64,000 nt of DNA from Deltaproteobacteria bacterium (GTDB taxonomy: Bacteria; Desulfobacterota; Dissulfuribacteria; Dissulfuribacterales; DYLC01): NCBI GenBank assembly GCA_028695735.1, contig JAQVIJ010000002.1, forward strand, positions 1 to 64,000, given 5' to 3'. A program made the position numbers and the translations under genes. This document shows positions 30,587-61,791 of the stretch, one piece after another; position 1 is the stretch's first letter, and each line of letters starts with the position of its first letter. The notes beneath the pieces were generated by a model. That model saw nothing but the letters and a program-made list of their open reading frames with translations, was not told where the DNA came from and did not search any database.

Positions 30587-30590
<4 letters not shown>
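27081..30590 (+). CDS. SNF2-like helicase with C-terminal DUF3883 (DISARM-related)
   Basis: This 1169-aa superfamily 2 helicase has Walker A LADDPGAGKT at residues 128-137 and DEAH at 230-233. Motif III is LTATPHNG, and the second RecA-like domain has VFTEHRDT, ATDAAGEGINLQ and QRFGRIHRIGQ. A long helical linker leads to a C-terminal DUF3883 domain (about 1060-1130) with CGYDIESR and RFIEVKGR. The Asp/Glu-x-Lys pattern there resembles PD-(D/E)xK nucleases. The Asp-Asp-Pro spelling of Walker A (usually DEVGLGKT) is unusual. The layout resembles DrmD-type helicases of DISARM systems, which load on foreign DNA. It overlaps the methyltransferase gene by 4 nt. Confidence 0.85.
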
Positions 30591-34174
<3,584 letters not shown>

Positions 34175-50431: not shown

Positions 50432-50496
50432 TTCATTCTTTTCCCAAATTCTGTGATCGAATCTAAAAAACAAAAAAGACACTGTGAGACTTCTTG

Positions 50497-50540
50497 ACAG
50501 AAAAAGGACAGACACATTTCTGAACAACTTTTTTAATTAA
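50497..50540 (+). repeat. Leader motif preceding repeat copy A
   Basis: The stretch GGACAGACACATTTCTGAAC followed by an A/T-rich TTTTTTAATT recurs ahead of cloverleaf copies C (51076-51117) and E (60985-61022), in variant form before D (60590-60630), and as a fragment near 61721. It always lies 10-27 nt upstream of the cloverleaf in the same orientation, so leader and cloverleaf move together. Confidence 0.7.
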
Positions 50541-50549
50541 ATCTCTTGA

Positions 50550-50664
50550 GGGCGGCAGTGGTGAAGCATTTGTTCCATGCGTCGCATAACTGCCCTCCAT
50601 GGCAGTATGCGCCGCCGGCGCCCTCCGTGGCGCCTATTCCACAAACACTTCACCACTGCCGCCC
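50550..50664 (+). repeat. Cloverleaf palindromic repeat, copy A
   Basis: The outer stem pairs GGGCGGCAGTGGTGAAG with CTTCACCACTGCCGCCC. It extends through TTTGT and ACAAA after a 2-nt mismatch. Inside are two hairpins: GCATAACTGCC/GGCAGTATGC and GGCGCC/GGCGCC with CTCCGT loop. The shape is an outer stem with two inner arms. Confidence 0.85.
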
Positions 50665-50878
50665 TTTTCGTCCCTGCGGAACTCCATGTCCATAACGGGT
50701 GCCCTATCCATTCCTACTGCAATCCCACAGATAACAACGAATTGACCTGCTGTAATGGCCAAACCGGCGTTTCTGCCAATAAAAATCGCAGAATTGGTCT
50801 TTATCCTCTGTTAACCAAAGTTCAAAGGATATGTGGTGGTTTGAAGCATCGTTTACGGTTGGGCGTGGGGTTCCGGAA

Positions 50879-50991
50879 GGGCGAGGGCAGTCGGTGTTTG
50901 TGAAATAGGCGCCACGAGGGCGCCGGCCCCACATTACCGCCAAGGAGGGCGGTTATGTGGGGCATGAAACAAATATCGGCTGCCCTCGCCC
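50879..50991 (-). repeat. Cloverleaf palindromic repeat, copy B
   Basis: The outer stem GGGCGAGGGCAG pairs with CTGCCCTCGCCC with TTTGT and ACAAA inward. Inner hairpins are GGCGCC/GGGCGCC and a longer CCCCACAT...ATGTGGGG arm. The order of arms is reversed relative to copy A, so A and B face each other around a 214-nt spacer. Confidence 0.85.
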
Positions 50992-51010
50992 AGAAAAGAT
51001 TAAATCTGAA

Positions 51011-51059
51011 CAGGCACAGCAATAAGGGCAGGCACAGAAGCATAAGGGGCAGGCACAGG
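51011..51059 (+). repeat. Short tandem repeat of CAGGCACAG
   Basis: CAGGCACAG recurs three times at 18-21-nt steps, each time but the last followed by an AATAAGGG-like stretch. It ends in a GGGCAGGC/GCCTGTCCC hairpin. It looks like slipped repeat material within the repeat region. Confidence 0.6.
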
Positions 51060-51125
51060 GGCCTGTCCCTACAACAGAAAAAGGGCAGACACATTCCTGA
51101 ACAACTTTTTTAATTAACTCTCTTT

Positions 51126-51222
51126 GGGGCGGCAGCGGTGAAGCATTTGTTCCATGCGGCGCATTTTGCCATGTAGGGCGGTTATGTGGGGCATGAAACA
51201 AATATCGGCTGCTCATCGCCCC
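51126..51222 (+). repeat. Cloverleaf repeat, hybrid copy C
   Basis: The left half matches copy A (GGCGGCAGCGGTGAAGCATT) and the right half matches copy B (GGCGGTTATGTGGGGCATG, ACAAATATCGGCTGC). The outer stem is imperfect. It looks like a recombination product between the two types. Confidence 0.75.
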
Positions 51223-51410
51223 AAAAAATAAAAAAACATATCAATAATATCTAAATGTGCTCTGCTGCTTGGTGACTATGTTCATCCTCACCCCAAAAAA
51301 CAAAAAACCATGTCATAATATCCACAAATATCCTTCAATCTTTCGATCCTTCAATCCTTCTGGCATTTTGGCTTCATTGGTTCTTAACATAGTAAATTCA
51401 ATGGTGAAAT

Positions 51411-53756
51411 TTAATTTTTTGAAATAATGTGTATATCCCTTTGAGGAAATGGAATAGAGATGCCTGCCCTTCTGAACTCGTCGTCTATGCGGGTGCGCAG
51501 GTCCGTTTCCACATCAAAGCGCTCTGTGATGTTTTGAATATAGCAGACCAGAAGAAAGTCCAGGGAACTGTCTCCAAAGTTGCGAAAGAGCACCTTGGGC
51601 TTGGGGTGCTTTTCATCCTTCAATACCTTTGGGTGAGACATGGCCACCTCGAGGAGTATGGAGCGCACCAGCTCTAAGTCGCTTCCATAGGCCACTCCCA
51701 CTGGTATTCTGAGCCTGCCGCTTCTATCGTCATGCGTCCAGTTGATGACCTCCTTGGAGATGAGATCGGAGTTGGGGACTATGATGTCGGCGTTGTCAAA
51801 GCTCTGAATCACGGTGGAGCGCACGGATATGCGCTTTACAAAGCCCTCTGTGCCTCCGATTACGATCCAATCCCCCTTTTTGATGGGCTGTTCAAAGAGG
51901 AGTATGAGCCCTGACACGAAGTTGTTTATGATGTTTTGAAGCCCGAAACCTATGCCCACAGACAGGGCGCCTGCTATAATCGCCAGATTGGAGAGGTTGA
52001 TGCCGGCTATCAAGGCGCCGATCAAAACCGCTAACATAAAGCCCACATACCCTGAGATGGTGACCAGGGCATCCACTGCGCCTGGGTCCATGGTTGTGTC
52101 GTGTTTGTAGCGCTGCTTGATGGTGTATTTGAGCATGCGGGCGCATATCCAGAGTATGAGAAATATCAAAAAGCCCACAAAGGCCTTGAGGGGAGAAAAG
52201 GTCAGCTCACCGACCTGCACGCCCTTTACCAGATACCCCTGAATGTGTGTGGAAAAGGTGCCCTTTATGTCCCAGGCAGTAAGAATCAGCAGGCATGAGA
52301 CGGCCCAGATAAAGAGCTGAAGGGAGATTTGAAGCCACAAAACGGCATAAAAGGGTTTTCCTGGCCTTATACCCAGGCGTTCCTTGAAAAACCGCCCTGT
52401 CTCGCCTGCATGGGATAGAGGGCGAAATGCCGATGTCAACATGCGAGTGAGCCAAAGGGCCAGGACAACGAAAAAGGCGGTGAGCAAAATGCCTGTGAGC
52501 AGGTATTCCGCCAGGTTGTGATAACCTATGAAATTGATGGCCAGCAGAAAGAGCAGGCTGACCTCGCATGCCCGAAGCAATTTAAGGGCGGATTTGTTCA
52601 GTTTTATGGCGTTTGATACCCAGAACAGGCCAATAATGGTCAGGAAAAAGCCCAAGATTCGGGCTGTCTCTTTTACAGGCCCTGGGGACTCCTGAAAGAT
52701 GGATGCCTGGGAGATCAGCAAAAAAGGAAGCACGCAGGCAAGCACTATGGCCCAGCGCCGCAGGAGGTGTGTCTTCTGTCTGGAGTCCAGGGGCAAGATA
52801 TCCAGCTCCAGAAGCAGGGCCAGTGTGGCGAGCTGAAAGACATAGAAAAGCAGGGCATAGGCAAAGAGACTGACCAGGGTATCAGGCAAAAAGGAGTGTC
52901 TCACAAACCCCAGGGCGATGGCAAGAAGGCCCAGAGAGACCACGCCTGGCGCATAGCGGCCATAGGAGGCATTCATATATTTCAGAAAGACCCCGAGCAT
53001 GTTCTGTTGCTGGCTGAAGGCCCCCACAGTCCTTTTGATGTATATGCCGAGCCAAAGCCCCATGGCCCACATGAAGAAAAGCCCCAGTAACTCCCATAAA
53101 TTCAGGTCTGACAGGCCGTTTTTCTGTAAAAGCAGTTCATGAAAATATGCCTTGAGAGCGGACAAAAAGTTAAGCACGGCGTCTTTTGTGGAGGGGGTAT
53201 CGGTTGAACCCGCCAAAAACAGGCTGAAAAGGCCCTTTTCCCGGTAAAAGAGCTGTTGAGAGGCCAGGTGTGCCCGCTTTTTGGAGAGGTCTGACAGGCC
53301 GTCTTGAATGGCCAGGGCCAAGAGCTTGGACTCAGCCATCTGGTTTTCCAGTTGCCCCTTTTGTTTCAGGAGGTTTTTGCGCTGTTTTGCTATCTCAGGT
53401 GTGTCCGTGTCGCTGGCAGTCCCTATGGCCTCTAAAGAGGCATTGAGCTTGTTCAACTCGGCCTCAATGGCCTCCATGCAGCCCTTATTCTGTTTTTCAA
53501 AGGCATTGAGGCGTTCTATGATGGCATCCAAGGTGGCCTCTGTGCTGTTTTCCGGTGAGGGGGTCTGCACCAACCTCTGAACCATGGCCTGAGTCGGCAG
53601 GTCGCTGCAGACCTTTTCCTGACAGACTCCCGCAGATGCCGTGAGCAGAAGAAAAAAGGCAGTTACATAAAGGCCGATACCTGTATGTTTTGGTGCGATT
53701 GGCCTCAAATGAGTAAATAGGTACTGCCTTATGAGTTTTGTGCCCAAAACGGCCAT
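51411..53756 (-). CDS. MscK-like mechanosensitive ion channel
   Basis: This 781-aa precursor has a signal peptide (ending near AGVCQ) and a periplasmic coiled-coil region (residues 60-150) with many Glu/Lys/Leu. About ten membrane helices follow, then the MscS core. The pore helix is INLSNLAIIAGALSVGIGFG, then QNIINNFVSGLILLFEQPIK, GDWIVIGG, and the cytoplasmic cage (VPNSDLISKEVINWTHDD, FRNFGDSSLDFLLVCYI). Such large MscS relatives (MscK/KefA) open on osmotic downshock. AGGAGGCATGAA precedes the ATG. The start is only 3 nt from the first in-frame ATG of the divergent DHH gene, so their 5' ends are intertwined. Confidence 0.9.
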   Translation of the reverse strand: MAVLGTKLIRQYLFTHLRPIAPKHTGIGLYVTAFFLLLTASAGVCQEKVCSDLPTQAMVQRLVQTPSPENSTEATLDAIIERLNAFEKQNKGCMEAIEAELNKLNASLEAIGTASDTDTPEIAKQRKNLLKQKGQLENQMAESKLLALAIQDGLSDLSKKRAHLASQQLFYREKGLFSLFLAGSTDTPSTKDAVLNFLSALKAYFHELLLQKNGLSDLNLWELLGLFFMWAMGLWLGIYIKRTVGAFSQQQNMLGVFLKYMNASYGRYAPGVVSLGLLAIALGFVRHSFLPDTLVSLFAYALLFYVFQLATLALLLELDILPLDSRQKTHLLRRWAIVLACVLPFLLISQASIFQESPGPVKETARILGFFLTIIGLFWVSNAIKLNKSALKLLRACEVSLLFLLAINFIGYHNLAEYLLTGILLTAFFVVLALWLTRMLTSAFRPLSHAGETGRFFKERLGIRPGKPFYAVLWLQISLQLFIWAVSCLLILTAWDIKGTFSTHIQGYLVKGVQVGELTFSPLKAFVGFLIFLILWICARMLKYTIKQRYKHDTTMDPGAVDALVTISGYVGFMLAVLIGALIAGINLSNLAIIAGALSVGIGFGLQNIINNFVSGLILLFEQPIKKGDWIVIGGTEGFVKRISVRSTVIQSFDNADIIVPNSDLISKEVINWTHDDRSGRLRIPVGVAYGSDLELVRSILLEVAMSHPKVLKDEKHPKPKVLFRNFGDSSLDFLLVCYIQNITERFDVETDLRTRIDDEFRRAGISIPFPQRDIHIISKN

Positions 53757-60417: not shown

Positions 60418-60650
60418 GGGAGGCTCCTTGCTTTTTTGTGTTTTAAAGCATGTTATGATTTTTAACCGATTTTTGAAAAAATAAAAGATAAAATTTTGTG
60501 TTGTGTGGAGAATAGAAAAGCATAGACATCATCAAGAAAAAGGACCATCAAAAAAGGACAAAAAAGGATAGACACATTCTAATAAAAACAAAAAAGTATA
60601 GGTACATTCCTGAATAACATTTTTAATGGATACAAAAAGACATCATTTTT

Positions 60651-60700
60651 TGGGGGCGGCAGCGGTGAAGCATTTGTTCCATGCGTCGCATAACTGCCAA
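60651..60700 (+). repeat. Cloverleaf repeat, left half, copy D
   Basis: GCGGCAGCGGTGAAGCATTT and the start of the first inner hairpin (GCATAACTGCC) are present. The rest is replaced by the 60713-60924 element and unrelated sequence. Confidence 0.75.
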
Positions 60701-60712
60701 GGAAGGAGGGGC

Positions 60713-60924
60713 GGTACAGACTCATCGTCATTGCGAGCCTGTCTGCGTGCAACGCACAGGCAGGACGGCGATAGCCGCCGAAGTAGGGGCGACCGGCCGG
60801 TCGCCCCTACATTCTTTTGTACAGGTGATTGCTTCGCTTCGCTCGCCTTCGCGCCAAGGCCTTGGAGCGAGCACCCTTCGGGCCGAGGCCTTCAGCGCGT
60901 GGCGCAATGACAACCGCCTGTACC
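60713..60924. mobile_element. MITE-like palindromic element next to copy D
   Basis: The 212-bp segment is bounded by GGTACAG (60713-60719) and CTGTACC (60918-60924). It carries a second inverted pair, GTCATTGCG (60728) and CGCAATGAC (60903). Within it lies a perfect 28-bp palindrome with arms GTAGGGGCGACCGG and CCGGTCGCCCCTAC at 60783-60810. It encodes no protein. It appears inserted in or beside a cloverleaf repeat, fitting a small non-autonomous element. Confidence 0.7.
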
Positions 60925-61048
60925 ATCGCTGAAGAAAAAACATTCTTCGGACAGAAAAGCCAGAACAAGCAACAAAAGCAAGCAACAAAAGGATGGGCAC
61001 ATTCCTAAATAACTTTTTTAATGGATATAAAAAGACATCATTTTTTGG

Positions 61049-61163
61049 GGGCGGCAGCGGTGAAGCATTTGTTCCATGCGTCGCATAACTGCCCTCCATG
61101 GCAGTATGCGCCGCCGGCGCCCTCCATGGCGCCTATTTCACAAACACTCCACCACTGCCGCCC
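61049..61163 (+). repeat. Cloverleaf palindromic repeat, copy E
   Basis: It is nearly identical to copy A. The outer stem GGGCGGCAGCGGTG pairs with CACCACTGCCGCCC (wobble or mismatch at one site). The inner hairpins GCATAACTGCC/GGCAGTATGC and GGCGCC/GGCGCC are the same. Confidence 0.85.
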
Positions 61164-61482
61164 TGCTCGTCCCTGCGGAATCCTATGTCCATAATGGGTT
61201 CCCTATCCATTCCTGATGTAATCCCACTGATAACTGATTGACCTGCTGTGATAGTGAGCTGGTATTTCTGCCAATAAAAAACGCTGGTTGAACCGGCACT
61301 TCTGTCAATAAAAAAAGTGAAATTGGCCTTTACCATCATTATTCACTCAAGTGCAAAGGGTATGTGCTGCTTTGAAGCGTCGTTTATGATTGGGTTTGGG
61401 TTTTCTTGAAGGGTGTTAACCAAACTCCAAAGAGTCTATGTCTTTTTTAAGCGGCTTCTGATGTAGGATGTGGAGGTGGGGA

Positions 61483-61598
61483 GGGGCGAGGGCAGTCGGT
61501 GTTTGTGGAATAGGCGCCACGGAGGGCGCCGGCCCCACATCTCCGCCATGGAGGGCGGTTATGTGGGGCATGGAACAAATATCGGCTGCCCTCGCCCC
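61483..61598 (-). repeat. Cloverleaf palindromic repeat, copy F
   Basis: It matches copy B: outer stem GGGGCGAGGGCAG with CTGCCCTCGCCCC, then GGCGCC/GGCGCC and CCCCACAT...ATGTGGGG inner arms. Together with E it reproduces the A-B arrangement, but with a longer spacer (about 319 nt). Confidence 0.85.
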
Positions 61599-61736: not shown

Positions 61737-61791
61737 TCCGCCAAGAAGGGCGGTTATGTGGGCATGGAACAAATACTGGCTGCCCTCGCCC
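61737..61791 (-). repeat. Cloverleaf repeat, right half, copy G
   Basis: The CCGCCAAGAAGGGCGG hairpin, TTATGTGGGCATGGAACAAA and CTGCCCTCGCCC match the right half of copies B and F. The left half is missing; a leader fragment abuts it instead. Confidence 0.75.

Follow-up and report, generated by a model that had tools for sequence, protein, structure and literature searches.

Two facing structured repeats lie around a non-coding centre in a 64,000-nucleotide stretch of a Deltaproteobacteria genome (the window), and the question is whether this locus is a non-autonomous transposon or a paired structured RNA. A reading of the letters alone (the sequence-only reading) had left both open and had described the repeats as two cloverleafs, A and B, each with an outer stem and two hairpins. 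This description was confirmed at 50550-50664 (A) and 50879-50991 (B), and the non-coding linker between the two facing copies (50665-50878) is exactly 214 nt long, as stated there. Each copy folds into an outer stem, a TTTGT/ACAAA stem and two hairpins, and does so on either strand. We call the strand opposite ATTTGTT..CACAAA the R, or RNA-like, strand. It is the minus strand of A and the plus strand of the inverted copy B, with the R strands directed outwards. Fold energies on the two strands are -73.5 and -80.0 kcal/mol for A (z -10.6 and -9.4) and -88.4 and -73.1 kcal/mol for B (z -11.3 and -8.3), with none of 200 shuffles as low; the R strands are those with -80.0 kcal/mol in A and -88.4 kcal/mol in B. 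The claim that the layout recurs at 61049-61598 also holds: a second A copy (61049-61163, minus strand) faces a second B copy (61483-61598, plus strand), and the linker is related, with 91% identity over 195 nt for the A side and adjacent linker and 75% over 108 nt for the B-side linker. Derivatives are present as well, namely a truncated A unit that retains its left flank and beyond which a GTAG-type REP pair has inserted (60592-60810), a truncated B fragment (61738-61791) and a hybrid deletion derivative (51127-51221) that joins the 5' part of A to the 3' part of B and has lost the hairpin loops. The sequence-only reading had missed the hybrid.

The genome to which the window belongs (G000; 2.22 Mb, 9 contigs) was searched for further copies, as had been proposed, and BLAST returned about 40 copies of A and about 40 of B at 91-98% identity. 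A strict pattern found 65 copies, and its backwards control found none. Among 46 genomes of the order, the strict pattern occurs in three, with 65 copies in G000, 107 in G008 and 15 in G015; the latter two form one genus in a family other than that of G000. A covariance model built from 48 copies matched five of the 46 genomes and left 41 without a match. It adds a single-copy relative in G006 to the strict-pattern carriers. The fifth match, in G001, is weak, does not resemble the cloverleaf and looks like chance. In a phylum sample of 395 genomes the model matched three, G000, G006 and G008. In the named collection, the matching records were Deltaproteobacteria UBA5754 and one contig of a Syntrophus-labelled MAG; other pattern matches (Alphaproteobacteria, Ruminococcus, Bacillus and others) lack the cloverleaf fold, and two viral-contig matches were due to chance. 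In G000 the copies form facing A-B pairs, each pair being one unit of a module. Such units are often arrayed in tandem and point the same way, as at C2:25815-28029 and C5:114637-116552. Several contig ends (C1, C2 and C8 of G008) and an N gap (C5 of G000, near 114740) fall at cloverleaf repeats, so that the copy numbers are lower bounds.

How these copies were dispersed is most readily seen in G008. There, single cloverleafs lie within discrete elements, most of them in the 140-180-bp length bins, that are bounded by 14-bp terminal inverted repeats (TIRs), CCTGAATCCGTGAG and its inverse. The 1.26 Mb of this genome contain 110 TIR pairs, and 51 of them are flanked by exact direct repeats of 5-7 bp, mostly 5 bp, compared to 0.8 expected from shuffled pairings. 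These duplications are 75% AT in a genome that is 42% AT. The sequence-only reading had suggested looking for target duplications, and they are present at the outer TIR edges. In G015, 5-6-bp duplications were found in four of eight scored pairs; a ninth pair was left out of the scoring, being on the Syntrophus-labelled contig. That contig belongs to a cave MAG labelled Syntrophus aciditrophicus; its copy is genuine, folds as a cloverleaf and has a G008-type TIR, and reflects either horizontal transfer or mis-binning. The TIRs and target duplications in G008 demonstrate that the cloverleaf element moved by DNA transposition and is a MITE-like non-autonomous transposon in that genome; mobility of the family is well supported, also by its patchy occurrence among the genomes of the order and the phylum. 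ORFs take up 84% of the sequence, yet contain only 7 of 90 G008 elements. With respect to the element tail, the cloverleaf can point either way, and the orientation relative to tandem genes (22 sense, 12 antisense) showed no significant bias.

Outer repeats were also found in G000, where CCCAAATTYCGTGATTGAATYT occurs at 22 sites with at most three mismatches and its backwards control at none. From TIR to TIR, these elements contain one A-B unit (C2:18292-18818, 527 bp), two (C1:9635-11095) or more (C5:114407-116792). The window copy would be another such element; its outer terminal repeats, starting at 50443 and ending at 51415, had escaped the sequence-only reading. Its left TIR, CCCAAATTCTGTGATCGAATCT, spans 50443-50464 on the plus strand with two mismatches to a degenerate consensus, and its right TIR, at 51394-51415 on the minus strand, is itself degenerate and matches at 16 of 22 positions. 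The whole element (50443-51415) measures about 973 bp and contains A, the linker, B and the hybrid derivative. By Pfam, its neighbours are a mechanosensitive-channel gene on one side and lptD on the other, and the right TIR supplies the TAA stop of the minus-strand ORF 51411-53756, with the mechanosensitive-channel stop codon inside the repeat. Target duplications in G000 are mostly worn: reading the edges of eight TIR-to-TIR elements by eye gave one clean 5-bp duplication (AATTG), and the window copy has at best TTTT (50439-50442 and 51416-51419). From its ends, CCCAAATTYCGTGATTGAAT, the window element would be the counterpart of the G008 element, and we infer its mobility from the structure of the family, not from its own site. 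The cloverleafs are internal cargo within the outer TIRs and not transposon ends. Both the non-autonomous transposon and the structured module of the sequence-only reading therefore stand, but the cloverleafs do not form the ends of the transposon.

A cognate transposase with matching ends had been named as a further check, and no intact or full-length one was found in the carriers; nor did the 1.26 Mb of G008 contain an autonomous partner with the same ends. Autonomous partners are often lost and are not an absolute requirement for a MITE. What looked like a 1.75-kb TIR pair in G008 proved to be a pair of partial elements flanking a sugar-nucleotide transferase gene, and PF01609 transposases gave no match. 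IS1380 as the mover was represented in the carriers by fragments only, with PF13701 limited to two remnants in G008. The ends of IS1380 copies from this order read ..GCATAATTTGGG and have the terminal 8-mer CCCAAATT in common with the G000 TIR, but they diverge past the 8-mer, and the G008 TIR is only loosely similar. Members of the IS1380 family make 4-5-bp target duplications. We take the shared 8-mer as a lead towards an IS1380 origin. Near position 24983 of contig C47 in G008, the start of a cloverleaf element lies within a broken integrase-like gene, beside IS1380 remnants.

Two inverted palindromes around a linker also resemble a BIME, and the locus could be read as a product of a REP system with a RAYT (REP-associated tyrosine transposase), the more so as Y1_Tnp domains are present in G000, G008 and G015. 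We consider this highly improbable. The cloverleafs lack a GTAG-type foot, none of them lies within 1.5 kb of the Y1_Tnp loci of the three genomes, and a separate GTAG-type REP family exists that is inserted into these elements. The TIRs and target duplications also disfavour it; such duplications are not expected from Y1 transposition. The GTAG-type REP pair GTAGGGGCGACCGGCCGGTCGCCCCTAC (window 60783-60810) is found beside or within many elements and apparently substitutes for the right half of A at several loci. The window itself encodes a Y1_Tnp (IS200/RAYT-like) domain at 31478-31708, in frame within a 1195-aa ORF (30587-34174), the rest of which resembles, as judged by eye, a DNA methyltransferase-type protein.

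To return to the cargo of the transposon, conservation of its structure was assessed by comparing stem pairing across 48 copies from the different lineages. Pairing was observed in 92.3% of cells, compared to 82.8% after shuffling, and slid-partner controls were paired in 44-50%. In 89 cells both sides had changed, where 33 were expected, and none of 500 shuffles gave a number as high. The stems of the cloverleaf thus covary between lineages, with most of the covariation in hairpin 1, and the compensatory changes on which the sequence-only reading had staked its proposal are present. Template-switch repair of palindromes could also maintain pairing, so covariation alone is no proof of an RNA. 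In G000, stem mismatches on the non-R strand are predominantly A.C (152 versus 9 G.U, and 117 versus 18), which correspond to G.U on the R strand, and all 86 copies fold more stably on R. In G008, R is more stable in just 25 of 78 copies, and the stem mismatches show no strand asymmetry.

On the R strand, the hairpin loops suggest a possible ligand. The loop of hairpin 1 reads ANGGA in 42 of 43 A copies and 41 of 43 B copies of G000, in 68 of 73 copies of G008 and in all 9 of G015. For hairpin 2 the corresponding numbers are 66 of 72 in G008, 12 of 12 in G015, and 17 of 42 (A) and 14 of 43 (B) in G000, where about 60% of the copies have lost the GGA from this hairpin. Frequent variation is limited to positions 2 and 6, the two N positions, in hairpin 1, and likewise in hairpin 2 outside G000. 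Among G000 A copies, position 2 of hairpin 1 is T in 20, G in 14 and A in 9, positions 1, 3 and 5 do not vary, and a single copy of the 43 departs from G at position 4. The loops are ATGGAC, ATGGAT, ACGGAC and ACGGAT in G008 and G015 and ANGGAG variants in G000, and the single-copy relative in G006, which lacks a G008-type TIR, has UUC-AUGGAU-GAA and an AUGGAC loop. The loop closing pair is C-G, and further GGA motifs are found in the unpaired stretches beside the TTTGT stem. For comparison, ANGGAN accounts for 10 of 1062 six-base loops on 6-bp stems outside the elements. In the window, copy A retains all four GGA motifs, including AUGGAG in hairpin 1 (50595-50600) and ACGGAG in hairpin 2 (50623-50628), both closed by C-G on the minus strand. 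Copy B has one left, in the hairpin-1 loop AAGGAG (50942-50947, plus strand); its hairpin-2 loop, ACGAG (50914-50918, plus strand), has lost the GGA. Apical hexaloops of the form CANGGANG are high-affinity CsrA/RsmE sites (PMC4894983). By motif, the C-ANGGAN-G loops of the R strand are the CsrA/RsmE binding hexaloop, conserved while the stems around them change, and the cloverleaf RNA is predicted to bind CsrA. As one arm may derive from the other, the two loops should not be counted as independent evidence. All carriers (G000, G008, G015 and G006) have a csrA gene, which in G000 stands beside fliW in a flagellar cluster. With csrA found in 32 of 46 genomes of the order, its presence in the carriers is necessary but uninformative.

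The cloverleaf of an ordinary MITE could instead be a DNA structure only, one that the transposase binds or that results from palindromic ends, with its pairing kept by transposase recognition and by template-switch repair of quasi-palindromes, and with no role as RNA. TIRs and target duplications are what such an element would carry, the G008 copies have neither the strand asymmetry of stem mismatches nor a firm orientation bias, no promoter was found in the window element, and in many copies the loops of the non-R strand contain the palindrome CCATGG. On the other hand, ANGGA is kept where this palindrome has been lost (AAGGAG and AGGGAG in G000) and variation is almost confined to N, every G000 copy folds better on R, and the G006 relative retains the loops despite lacking the G008-type TIR. 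We regard a DNA-only cloverleaf as a possible but less likely account. Our data point, with moderate confidence, to a MITE-like non-autonomous element that carries, as conserved cargo, a cloverleaf RNA of the predicted CsrA-binding type.

The sequence-only reading knew of no named family with this design, which holds at Rfam gathering thresholds. At a relaxed threshold, the R strand of A matches TwoAYGGAY (RF01731, clan CL00106) with 32.8 bits (E 0.0047), and the R strand of one G008 copy with 35.2 bits, both over the full model length. TwoAYGGAY likewise has two AYGGAY-loop hairpins under a closing stem, the G008 loops being exactly AYGGAY, and has been predicted to bind CsrA from the same loops (PMC4333381). 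However, these scores are below the gathering score of 43, which no scanned copy reached, and most other copies gave no match at all; the cloverleaf is therefore not filed as a member. TwoAYGGAY is known from gut metagenomes, gamma-proteobacteria and Clostridiales, and mobility was not described there (PMC2864571).

RNAs that antagonise the global post-transcriptional regulator CsrA have been described mainly in Gammaproteobacteria. The cloverleaf resembles the sponge RNAs CsrB/CsrC and RsmX/Y/Z in carrying GGA in hairpin loops and in single-stranded parts. These are promoter-driven single genes, mainly in Gammaproteobacteria, whereas a transposon has spread the cloverleaf, for which no promoter is apparent. 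In Geobacter sulfurreducens, no RNA of the CsrB/C family has been characterised (PMC13407953). That the copies are stand-alone sponge genes of the CsrB/RsmY kind, multiplied without a transposon, would fit the ANGGAN loops, the presence of csrA and the single-copy relative in G006, but is very unlikely given that the copies, at dispersed sites, have exact TIR boundaries and 5-6-bp duplications, and given that neither promoter-like nor terminator-like sites were found in the window element, linker included. NEMIS, ERIC and Correia are further bacterial MITEs with strong secondary structure. The cloverleaf elements are like such MITEs in being short, non-coding and intergenic, with TIRs and target duplications, and differ from them in having a conserved ANGGAN cloverleaf that is common to members with different TIRs and is doubled and in tandem in G000. 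The MITE-like bcr1-3 repeats of the Bacillus cereus group are often transcribed in UTRs or operons (PMC3446304).

In the reading favoured here, the window copy would be a longer member of the family, bounded by CCCAAATT.. repeats, with the module doubled into facing A and B, and it would have been moved in trans by a transposase, probably IS1380-like, that has since been lost or degraded. When transcribed from a neighbouring gene, a copy would give an R-strand RNA exposing two ANGGA hexaloops that a CsrA dimer could clamp. As the R strands of A and B point outwards, transcription in either direction yields one R-strand cloverleaf. Each insertion could then add a CsrA decoy RNA or place the adjacent mRNA under the influence of CsrA. 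Only tentatively do we propose that the copies jointly form a candidate CsrA sponge across the genome or bring neighbouring genes under CsrA control. If CsrA binding is true, a mobile element with up to about 100 copies per genome spreads a CsrA-binding RNA through these genomes, providing a concrete and abundant antagonist candidate here, and its transposition could rewire post-transcriptional networks. With a sponge or control role, it would be the first mobile CsrA decoy, and this part of the former Deltaproteobacteria would have a first candidate for a CsrB-like RNA. Should CsrA not bind, the elements still form a well-defined and apparently undescribed MITE family with a conserved internal cloverleaf common to two families of the order.

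The regions that adjoin the cloverleafs are themselves patterned. The left flanks of A (window 50497-50549 and 61000-61048) can be sorted into a small number of conserved classes (GGACAGACACATTCCTGAACAACTTTTTTAAT.. and ..AAAAAGACATCATTTTTTG), and the same applies to the right flanks of B, which suggests a mosaic of additional repeat modules. On contig C8 of G000 (277789-281170), a distance of about 2 kb separates csrA from two A-B units.
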